From Acidobacteriota bacterium (lineage in GTDB: Bacteria; Acidobacteriota; Terriglobia; Terriglobales; Acidobacteriaceae): DNA of 64,000 bases. Position numbers and translations under genes: made by a program. The notes under the pieces were generated by a model. It saw only the letters and a program-made list of their open reading frames with translations. It was not told the DNA's origin and ran no database searches. Positions within the stretch are counted from its first letter, which is position 1. Every line of letters begins with the position of its first letter. Location: the NCBI GenBank assembly GCA_021816455.1, contig JAKAXU010000001.1:1-64000 (forward strand). Direction: 5' to 3'. Of this stretch, positions 48,432 to 63,050 are shown piece after piece.

Positions 48432-48505
48432 TGCCCTCTCGTTCAATGGTAGGACAACTGCCTCTGGAGCAGTCTATCGGGGTTCGAATCCCTGGGGGGC
48501 AGCCA
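48432..48505 (+). tRNA. tRNA-Gln (anticodon CUG)
   Basis: 74 nt cloverleaf. Acceptor TGCCCTC pairs with GGGGGCA (one T-G). The D stem is GTTC/GGAC. The anticodon stem ACTGC/GCAGT has loop CTCTGGA, giving anticodon CTG. The T arm is CGGGG-TTCGAAT-CCCTG (one G-T). Discriminator G and CCA are encoded. A sigma-70 promoter lies just upstream. Confidence 0.95.
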
Positions 48506-59425: not shown

Positions 59426-59454
59426 TTGACCGCCTGCGGCAAGGCTCTTACCAT
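59426..59454 (+). promoter_or_regulatory. Predicted promoter of the tig-clpP-clpX cluster
   Basis: TTGACC (59426-59431), 17-bp spacer, TACCAT (59449-59454), 126 bp before the chosen tig start. Plausible sigma-70 promoter; not proven. Confidence 0.45.
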
Positions 59455-59580
59455 GGAAGATGACGTTTCCCTGCCCGGATTTTGAGCAGCGTCGTCCCTG
59501 TGCGCAAACGACGCAGCCCGGGGAGCACGCGGTCGGCTGGGCGAGTACGGAAGACGGACCCACACTGGAAGGCACACACA

Positions 59581-61014
59581 TTGAGTTCTGCAGAAACGAT
59601 TGACACCGCCCCCCACGCTGAGACAGCCCCGGAAGAGACGCTCGCAGCAGGTTATGAAGAGCACAATAGCCACGAAGGCCATCCTCACGACAGCCACAAC
59701 CATGAAGGTCACGACCATGCCGGGCACACACACGGGCCGGTCCTGAATCCGGAATGTGTGCGCGAGGTGAAGCTCGAAGCCTCGACCGAGGAAGTCGATG
59801 CAGCCTTTGCCCGCGTGCTCAGGGAGTACAAAAAGTTCGCCAAGATTCCGGGATTCCGCGCCGGAAAGGTTCCGGAGACCGTGGTGCGACGCCGCTTTGC
59901 CGAGCAGATTCGCAAGGATGTAGTGGAGAGATTGTTGCCGGAGCGTTTTCAGGCGGCGATCCAGGCCGCCGGACTATTGCCCGTCTCGCAGCCACAACTG
60001 ACCCAGTTCACTCTTGAAGAGGGCAAGGCGCTTGAAGGCACAGCGGTCTTTGAGGTGGTTCCTCCGATCTCAATCGACGGATATCGGGAGGTAACTGTTC
60101 CGAAGTTGCCGGTCACCGTGAGCGAGGAAGAGTTCCAGCGCGAGCTGAAGCAGTTGCAGGAGTCGCGAGCTACTGTGGAGAACGTCGAAGAGGATCGCGC
60201 ACTGGCCGATGGCGACTGGGCCCAGATCAGCTTCCACGGCGAAGCGCAGGCAAGCACTGCGGACGCGCCCGAGCCGGTCGACGGCGAAAATTCGCTGGTG
60301 GAAATTGGCGGGGAGCAGACACTGCCGGCCTTCACCGAGGCGCTGCGCGGAGCAAAGCCGGGCCAGGAGATTCAGGCTGAGGTGGTATATCCAGCCGACT
60401 ATCAGGAGACTCGACTGGCAGGCAAGACCGTCACGTATACGATCGAGGTGAAGGCGATCAAAAAGCGTACTTTGCCGGAATTGAACGACGCGTTTGCGCA
60501 GGAGCTGGGCGACTACGAGAACCTTGCCGCGCTGGAGACACGCATTCGTGAATTCCTGCAGGCAAACAAGGAACGCGACAATGAGCAGCGGACACGCGAA
60601 GCTCTCTTCGCCAGGCTCGCCGAGCAGTTCCCCTTCCCCGTCCCGGAGACACTGGTGCAGCAGCAGGTGGACGCACGGCTGGACCGTGGACTGCGTGCGC
60701 TGGCATCGCAGGGCATGAGTGCGGAGATGATGCGGAAGCTGGACTTCGCGCGGCTGCGCGGAGCACAGCGCGATGCGGCGCTGCAGGAGGTAAGAACCGC
60801 TCTGCTGCTGGATCGGATTGCCGAGGCTGAGGGAATCGAGGTGACCGACGAGGAGTTCGAACAAGAATTGCAGATCGCCGCCTTGCAGTCCCGCGAACCG
60901 CTGGAGAGCCTGCGGTCGCGTTTGACCCAGGACGGTGGACTGGCTAGAATCCGAGAACAGATCAAACGGGAAAAAACCGCCAGCGCACTTTCTCAGCGAA
61001 TGCCCGCTGCCTGA
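59581..61014 (+). CDS. tig: Trigger factor chaperone with a His-rich N-terminal extension
   Basis: Ribosome-associated chaperone and peptidyl-prolyl isomerase, 477 residues. The ribosome-binding motif is IPGFRAGKVPETVV (about 96-109). A PPIase (FKBP-like) domain (about 205-300, GDWAQISFHGEA) and the long helical C-terminal arms follow. Residues 28-51 hold ten histidines in pairs (HNSHEGHP, HDSHNHEGHDHAGHTH), absent from usual trigger factors and reminiscent of metal-binding tails of SlyD and HypB. The start was set at TTG 59581 after GGAAGG; an in-frame TTG 99 bp upstream gives a basic, non-family extension. The His tract is inside the protein with either start. clpP and clpX follow. Confidence 0.93.
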   Translation: MSSAETIDTAPHAETAPEETLAAGYEEHNSHEGHPHDSHNHEGHDHAGHTHGPVLNPECVREVKLEASTEEVDAAFARVLREYKKFAKIPGFRAGKVPETVVRRRFAEQIRKDVVERLLPERFQAAIQAAGLLPVSQPQLTQFTLEEGKALEGTAVFEVVPPISIDGYREVTVPKLPVTVSEEEFQRELKQLQESRATVENVEEDRALADGDWAQISFHGEAQASTADAPEPVDGENSLVEIGGEQTLPAFTEALRGAKPGQEIQAEVVYPADYQETRLAGKTVTYTIEVKAIKKRTLPELNDAFAQELGDYENLAALETRIREFLQANKERDNEQRTREALFARLAEQFPFPVPETLVQQQVDARLDRGLRALASQGMSAEMMRKLDFARLRGAQRDAALQEVRTALLLDRIAEAEGIEVTDEEFEQELQIAALQSREPLESLRSRLTQDGGLARIREQIKREKTASALSQRMPAA

Positions 61015-61136: not shown

Positions 61137-61727
61137 ATGGCACTGGTTCCCATGGTGGTTGAGCAGACGAGTCGCGGCGAGCGCGCCTACGACATTTACT
61201 CGCGTCTGCTGCGCGACAACATCATCTTCCTCGGCACGCCGATCGACGACCAGATTGCAAATCTGGTCGTCGCTCAAATGCTGTTTCTCTCCGGCGAAGA
61301 CCCGGAGAAGGATATCCAGCTCTATATCAACTCGCCGGGCGGATCGATCACCGCCGGACTTGCCATCTACGACACGATGCAGTTCATCAAGAACGACGTG
61401 GTGACCTATTGCATCGGTCAGGCAGCGAGCATGGGTGCGTTTCTGCTGCTGTCCGGAACCAAGGGCAAGCGATTCGCGCTTCCAAACTCGCGCATTCTGA
61501 TTCATCAGCCCTCGATGGGCGGACTAAGCGGTCAGGCGACGGACATCGACATTCACGCGCGGGAGATTCTGCGCATTCGCGAGATTACCAATACGCTGAT
61601 GGCCAAACACACCGGACAGACGCTGGAGCAGATCGAGCGGGATGTGGAGCGCGATTTCATCATGAACGCGCCACAGGCGAAAGAATACGGTATTATCGAT
61701 GAAATCATCGACAGGCCGCGAAGCTGA
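61137..61727 (+). CDS. clpP: ATP-dependent Clp protease proteolytic subunit
   Basis: 196-residue serine peptidase that forms the double heptamer degraded-substrate chamber. Catalytic S98 in [12 protein letters not shown]123 in [10 protein letters not shown] and D173 in ERDFIMN. The N-terminal axial segment ([23 protein letters not shown]) is standard. It follows tig by 122 bp and precedes clpX by 45 bp, the classic tig-clpP-clpX order. Confidence 0.97.
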
Positions 61728-61772: not shown

Positions 61773-63050
61773 ATGAAAACTCGTTCGGGACCGGAAGACA
61801 CATTACGGTGTTCGTTCTGCCACAAGTCGCAGGACGCTGTCGCCAAGCTTATCTCCTCGCCGAGCGACTATCCTCGTGCTTACATCTGCGACGAATGCGT
61901 TGCGGTGTGCAATTCCATCCTGGAGGATGACCGCTCGGATGCGAGTCCATCCAGTTCTCCGTCGCACCTGCCGAAGCCGCAGGAGGTGAAAGCCTTCCTC
62001 GACGAATACGTGATCGGACAGGACCAGACCAAGAAGAAGCTCGCAGTCGCTGTTTACAACCACTACAAGCGCATCCAGATGAATCGGATGCGCAACAACG
62101 ATATCGAGCTTGCAAAGTCGAATATTCTGCTGCTCGGGCCGACCGGCTCTGGGAAGACGCTGCTGGCGCATACGCTGGCCAAGATGCTCGATGTGCCGTT
62201 CGCCATTGTGGACGCGACAACGCTGACCGAGGCGGGCTACGTGGGCGAGGACGTGGAGAACATCATCCTCAAGCTTCTGCAAGCGGCCGACGGTGATGTG
62301 GCACGCGCGCAAAGCGGAATCATCTATATCGACGAGATCGACAAGATCGGTCGCAAGGACGAGAATCCTTCCATCACGCGCGATGTCTCCGGCGAAGGCG
62401 TGCAACAGGCGCTGCTGAAGATTCTGGAAGGCACAGTGGCCAATGTTCCGCCACAGGGCGGACGGAAGCATCCGCACCAGGAATTTACCGCGGTCGACAC
62501 GACGAATATTTTGTTCATCTGCGGCGGGGCGTTTGTGGGGTTAGAGCGTGTGATTGGCCGTCGCATCGGCAAGAAGGCGCTTGGCTTCAAGGCAAATGAA
62601 ACCGCGGAAGTGGACGGCGCGCTTGCACTGCGTCCGCAAAGGGACACTGAGCTGCTGCGCCAGGTCGAACCGCAGGATCTGATCAAGTACGGTCTGATTC
62701 CAGAGTTTGTGGGCCGTCTGCCGGTAATGGGCGTGCTGGAAGAACTGGACGAAGCGGCTCTGGTCGAGATTCTGACCAAGCCCAAGAATGCGATTCTGAA
62801 GCAGTACCAGCGACTCTTCGAGTATGAGAATGTGCATCTGCACTTCACCGCGGATGCAGTGGGCGCGGTGGCACGCGAGGCGCTGCGGCGCAAGGTGGGA
62901 GCGCGCGGACTACGCATGATTCTGGAAGAACTGATGCTGGATCTGATGTATCATCTGCCGAACAGCAAGCGCGTGCGCGATCTGGAGATCACGCGAGAGA
63001 TGGTCGAGCGGCGTGACCTGTCGCTGTCGCTGCTGGAAAAGGCAGGCTGA
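61773..63050 (+). CDS. clpX: ATP-dependent Clp protease ATPase subunit ClpX
   Basis: 425-residue AAA+ unfoldase. N-terminal zinc-binding domain CSFC...CDEC (C13, C16, C39, C42). Walker A is in [14 protein letters not shown], Walker B in [13 protein letters not shown]. The [11 protein letters not shown] and ALLKILEGT blocks are present, and [19 protein letters not shown] closes the C-terminal domain. GGGAGGA lies 9 bp before the ATG. Pairs with clpP. Confidence 0.97.

Follow-up and report, generated by a model that had tools for sequence, protein, structure and literature searches.

A histidine-rich N-terminal extension on trigger factor in Acidobacteriaceae, a candidate metal-binding tail

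What could ten histidines within 24 residues be doing at the front of a trigger factor, and do they belong to the protein at all? The question is raised by the tig gene of the window, the stretch of 64,000 nucleotides from an Acidobacteriota bacterium (Acidobacteriaceae) that was analysed here. A sequence-only reading of the window had named the product of this gene a trigger factor and given its coordinates and the histidine count, all of which were confirmed (Table 1). Pfam places Trigger_N (PF05697, E 5e-33) at residues 58–192, FKBP_C (PF00254) at 207–291 and Trigger_C (PF05698) at 315–470; Trigger_N with the GFRxGxxP signature, an FKBP-type PPIase domain and Trigger_C identify the protein as a trigger factor, and its top PDB match is 1t11. 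Ordinary trigger factors (E. coli 1w26; 1t11) share these three domains and the ribosome-binding signature. The difference lies ahead of them: the distance from start to signature is exactly 42 residues in 39 of the 61 loci scored elsewhere in the phylum, versus 90, with a His tract, here. A promoter scan returned two promoter-like sites against 0.3 expected, one of them upstream of tig (59426–59454), and the same scan returned no terminator-like sites. The only Rfam match at gathering score within the window is a tRNA gene at 48432–48502 (+).

Table 1. Features at the tig locus, in coordinates of the window
Feature	Coordinates	Strand	Evidence or remark
Shine-Dalgarno-like GGAAGG	59567..59572	+	8 nt ahead of start codon; AAGG at 7–8 nt in 15/15 genus members
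TTG start codon, then conserved SS(A/T)ET-like motif	59581..59583	+	TTG picked in 15/15 genus members
N-terminal extension, residues 1–51	59581..59733	+	Predicted disordered; acidic, His-rich, no Lys/Arg
His tract, residues 28–51, 10 His in 24	59662..59733	+	Sequence count
tig, trigger factor, 477 aa	59581..61014 (stop included)	+	Pfam Trigger_N, FKBP_C, Trigger_C; PDB trigger factor matches
Trigger_N ribosome-binding domain	59752..60156	+	Pfam; GFRAGKVP signature at residues 91–98
clpP	61137..61727	+	Downstream neighbour of tig; Pfam CLP_protease
clpX	61773–63050		After clpP; Pfam AAA_2 with zf-C4_ClpX

Histidine is otherwise scarce in the window protein, with one at residue 12 and only one across residues 56–477. 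The chance of at least 10 His in 24 residues is about 4e-7 (binomial, 3% His, multiplied by 454 windows), and among the 281 stop-to-stop frames of at least 100 aa in the window the His-densest 24-mer is the tig tract (runner-up 8 His). No tandem repeat was found in the tract DNA, and expansion of a DNA repeat was rejected as the origin of the tract. An AlphaFold2 model (12 sequences) gave pLDDT values below 50 at residues 1–51, with no other segment of at least three residues scoring so low; beyond residue 51 the fold is for the most part confident (mean pLDDT 81.3, pTM 0.62). In the model the tail adjoins the folded N domain. The tract was correctly placed before the ribosome-binding domain by the sequence-only reading: it lies just ahead of Trigger_N within the predicted unfolded tail, and its end is about 40 residues ahead of the GFRAGKVP signature.

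The same reading had put the start codon upstream of the tract. No in-frame ATG lies between the TTG codon and the folded domain in the window sequence; an in-frame GTG at residue 60 falls on the first predicted strand. Start codons were picked throughout by the best Shine-Dalgarno score, a procedure whose picks for L075, L089, L092, L129 and L130 are probably wrong. GGAAGG was present in all 14 upstream stretches inspected from the genus. A downstream start was ruled out by the conservation of the TTG codon with its Shine-Dalgarno sequence in all genus members and by selection on the extension (dN/dS below 1, see below), so that the upstream start stands. TTG or GTG was also picked in 66 of the 70 other family loci, with or without a tract. 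In the phylum's other families such starts were picked in 18 of 61 loci and ATG in 43. Motifs resembling LSSTET, LTSAET or VSPTET mark the picked start in most Acidobacteriaceae loci outside the genus. Because this start motif also marks tract-less members of the family, the tract seems to be flanked by an old start motif on one side and an old domain on the other. Separately, the near family-wide non-ATG start of tig (loci L029–L137, L205) may hold down or regulate its translation.

The sequence-only reading had named two findings that would refute it, a real start downstream of the tract and confinement of the tract to a single strain, and it withstood both. The tract was found in 15 of 15 genomes of the window's genus and at wider occurrence in the family, which excludes an oddity of one strain. 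The family sample comprised 80 genomes, about one per genus with two from the window's genus, of which 76 contained Trigger_N; 73 were scored, leaving out the four without a match, the fragments G042 and G068, and G053, which is cut at a contig end (a contig end also truncates the scored G041, locus L039). A stretch of 24 residues with 5 or more His was present in 23 of these genomes; the count was 3–4 in six and lower in 44, the 3 His of L091 being counted from codons upstream of its picked start. Outside the family, 102 genomes of the phylum had a match and 62 loci were inspected; one, L175, lacks the signature, and none of the 61 scored had a His-rich stretch between picked start and domain. 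L142, L162 and L182 reach 5–6 His in 24 only with codons ahead of the picked ATG and were not counted; in L182 the picked ATG is preceded by other in-frame ATGs.

A tree built by a quick method from the N domain, with the extension removed (101 rows, 146 columns), left 54 of 98 inner branches open. Of the 43 rows that reach 5 His or more, 39 fall into a single clade of 44 rows (SH-aLRT 99), whose other members are four intermediate rows and one poor row. The remaining four tract rows fall in two places, L047/L114/L133 (support 99) and L033 beside the tract-poor L032 (88). The tract can be reduced within the clade, because His-poor members occur inside it (L051 with 2 His in 24; L082, L089, L101 and L131 with 3–4). 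Parsimony on this tree, with intermediates left out, required four changes, which may be read as a single principal gain, two additional ones and a loss; the alternative is losses in place of gains. In both separate tract lineages an ATG comes after the tract, and their starts are therefore less sure.

Within the genus, composition is kept more strictly than sequence. The extensions of 14 full-length members span 48–60 residues and contain 8–16 His, 9–13 Asp plus Glu, and 0–1 Lys plus Arg, while length and order vary among them with many indels. The domain-proximal end is best kept, and in the window's closest relatives the best-conserved part is GHDHAGH.H.PVLNP.C, next to the domain. Median dN/dS was 0.26 for the extension (67 of 91 pairs usable) versus 0.10 for the core (88 of 91), figures that are rough because dS is near saturation. 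These data bear on the idea that the extension is a neutral low-complexity spacer, disordered and with a His content that drifts without function. Its variable length and sequence, and the few His-poor members of the clade, are what such a spacer would produce; the extension dN/dS below 1, even as a rough value, the retained counts of histidine, acidic and basic residues, the lack of a tandem DNA repeat that could generate the tract, and its repeated origin on this chaperone all speak against it. We regard a neutral spacer as improbable.

Where else do such tracts occur? In the window genome the DNA pattern for H.H..H.H had 41 matches versus 11 for a reversed control. When the frames around all 41 were inspected, most of the dense ones were overlapped by longer open reading frames, and three matches lay in trigger factor. 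Some long frames with the pattern hold 5–7 His in 24 (e.g., L279, L290, L294, L349), as counted from sequence alone. Gene-like frames with at least 8 His in 24 were trigger factor, L273, L286 and L300. L273 (contig C12) and L286 (contig C23; a partial match, to the later part only) are Cation_efflux/ZT_dimer exporters with His-rich C-termini. L300 (1438–1707, minus strand, contig C49) is an 89-aa frame with 11 His in 24 and no Pfam match, and its start looks by eye like a signal peptide. A scan of a genome collection with HNHEGHDH among its patterns also gave look-alike tracts in a ZnuA (L026) and in a CusB/HlyD-type adaptor (L019). Judged by these sequence matches, tracts like that of trigger factor occur in metal-handling proteins, namely the ZnuA, the CusB/HlyD-type adaptor and cation exporters of the window genome.

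The HDH and GHDH spacing common to tracts in metal-handling proteins weighs against a metal-free account of the tail. Acidobacteriaceae live in acidic habitats and are acid-tolerant, and a His/Asp/Glu polyampholyte would gain positive charge as cytosolic pH falls, with an effect on solubility or on binding of ribosome or client. The many histidines and acidic residues and near lack of basic ones in the 14 genus members suit such a pH-sensitive tail. Against it, the 44 scored family genomes in which no 24-residue stretch reaches 3 His show that many members do without one. We hold this account, too, to be improbable.

Several known proteins offer close parallels. SlyD combines an FKBP-type domain with an unstructured metal-binding C-terminal tail, which is His-rich in H. 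pylori, and according to a review the tail is needed for hydrogenase maturation (PMC7055735). Like SlyD, the window protein is a folding helper with an FKBP-type domain, and the metal binding of its tail is proposed from sequence resemblance; unlike SlyD, a free-standing PPIase–IF protein with the tail at its C-terminus, it is a full trigger factor with the tract at the N-terminus, and no link to HypB was seen. The His-rich region of HypB from Bradyrhizobium and Rhizobium binds Ni and also Zn, Cu and Co, and storage or buffering has been suggested for it, according to the same review (PMC7055735). HypB likewise has its His-rich stretch near the N-terminus, but it is a hydrogenase-maturation GTPase, and no GTPase domain was among the Pfam matches of the window protein up to E 0.001. 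Mycobacterial GroEL1, a member of a general chaperone family as is trigger factor, ends in an HDHHHGHAH-type tail, and peptides from this tail are reported to bind Cu(II) (PMC10170517). GroEL1 is a chaperonin with a C-terminal tail and one of two mycobacterial GroEL families, whereas in the window genome the Trigger_N search gave the tailed trigger factor and no other match. Helicobacter pylori HspA, described as a GroES with a His/Cys C-terminal extension that sequesters metal (PMC7840056), resembles the window protein as a housekeeping chaperone with a lineage-specific extension; it differs in being a GroES homologue and in an extension that is C-terminal, rich in Cys as well as His, and associated with nickel.

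The likeness to SlyD and HypB had led the sequence-only reading to suggest a nickel link, and this part of it found no support. The corresponding proposal is that the tail delivers nickel to NiFe-hydrogenase or another nickel enzyme in place of SlyD. Trigger factor, like SlyD, does have an FKBP-type domain, and a SlyD query gave no matches in the 80 family genomes, a result that is uninformative because the query had no positive control. HypB above its curated cut-off was found in 36 of the 80 family genomes. Among the tract-bearing genomes 8 of 23 had it and among the rest 25 of 50, some of these assemblies being incomplete (Fisher p 0.31), so that no association between tract and HypB was seen and a NiFe-hydrogenase link was rejected. 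HypB above the cut-off was absent from the window genome (86.5% complete) and from the second genus member, and was missing in 15 of the 23 tract-bearing genomes, nine of these 15 being at least 97% complete. A NiFe-hydrogenase role of the tail is unlikely, and nickel delivery as a whole appears very improbable to us.

We favour, with moderate confidence, the view that the extension is a translated, disordered tail on trigger factor that binds transition metal and serves as a tethered metal buffer. The elements pointing to it are the conserved TTG start, the predicted disorder, the kept His/Asp/Glu make-up, the clade-wide occurrence and the look-alike trigger factors described below, and we infer transition-metal binding because the tail resembles those of HypB, SlyD, HspA and GroEL1. 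The alternating H-D-H and G-H-D-H units would offer weak, reversible sites for several Zn(II), Co(II), Cu(II) or Ni(II) ions. Trigger factor is an abundant protein located at ribosomes and nascent chains, and for this reason the tail could buffer metal in the cytosol, taking up what is loosely bound in the vicinity of new chains or passing it on. Its mode of action would be like that of the SlyD, HypB and GroEL1 tails, but not dedicated to NiFe-hydrogenase. Zinc is a first guess for the bound metal, solely because zinc-type transporters account for most of the other His tracts that were identified.

Outside Acidobacteriota, trigger factors came from the same genome-collection scan with HNHEGHDH among its patterns; its hits are look-alikes by design and give no rate across bacteria. 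C-terminal His-rich tails were found on trigger factors of Ilumatobacteraceae (L013) and Ignavibacteriae (L014), and a short C-terminal tract in Ruminococcus (L012/L206). In bacterium nzgw470 (L016) and in Paceibacterota (L017) the tract separates Trigger_N from Trigger_C, and FKBP gave no match. Relatives were surveyed in the family of L013 and the order of L017 (54 and 50 genomes with matches, 30 loci examined each) and in the Ruminococcus family (59 genomes with matches, 30 loci examined). Among the matches listed, and in addition to the starting loci named above, at least 5 His in a C-terminal 24-mer were present in 12 of 30 loci of the L013 family, and an interdomain tract in 7 of the 28 scored loci of the L017 order, where scoring covered all of the 29 additional loci but L216, and L226, with 6 His only far upstream of the domain, was left uncounted. 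None of the 29 other Ruminococcus-family loci among the matches listed reaches 5 His, and the L012 tail is isolated. Trigger factor domains were checked by Pfam in L013, L014, L016, L017, L230, L238 and L253: L230 and L238 have trigger factor domains with no FKBP match, and L253 has Trigger_N and Trigger_C. By sequence comparison, a His tract on trigger factor recurs in other phyla, and its position does not.

Some further features of these proteins were seen in passing. Ilumatobacteraceae-type loci (L013, L246, L252, L253, L265, L266, L270) have long His/Asp tails with up to 13 His in 24, and in Paceibacterota-type proteins with no FKBP match (L016, L017, L230, L238) a His-rich insert separates the N and C domains. 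Two to five Trigger_C matches were counted in 32 of 59 genomes of the Ruminococcus family, and trigger-factor-like paralogues seem common there.

The changing position bears on the sequence-only suggestion of a tail acting at the tunnel exit. The tail does adjoin the ribosome-binding domain; the claim attached to its position is weakened by the C-terminal and interdomain tracts of other phyla. A strict version would make the tail a switch, in which bound metal alters the docking of the adjacent ribosome-binding domain and metal status thereby controls nascent-chain folding at the exit. The short distance to the signature, the contact with the folded N domain and the superior conservation of the domain-proximal motif in the closest relatives agree with such gating. 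The tract nevertheless varies freely in length, and with the C-terminal or interdomain placement seen in other phyla the tracts have no common ribosome geometry. We consider a metal-gated switch rather improbable. A broader possibility is that in several phyla trigger factor has repeatedly become a metal sensor or buffer tethered to the ribosome, with the His-rich arm placed N-terminally, C-terminally or in the middle, and that it couples metal availability to the handling of nascent chains. We put this forward as a tentative idea that is unlikely in its full form; if it were true, metal homeostasis and co-translational folding would be linked in a way absent from the papers found.

Chaperones with His-rich metal tails are already known, and we call a trigger factor with one apparently new within the literature searched: no paper on a His-rich trigger factor was found by title, start of abstract and term counts in a collection covering few subscription journals. 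Should the tail bind metal, as the buffer reading has it, the main ribosome-associated chaperone of this acidobacterial group would double as a metal buffer, and a similar solution would have arisen in unrelated lineages. Metal buffering would then be placed where proteins are made, and an effect of metal status on co-translational folding would be directly testable.
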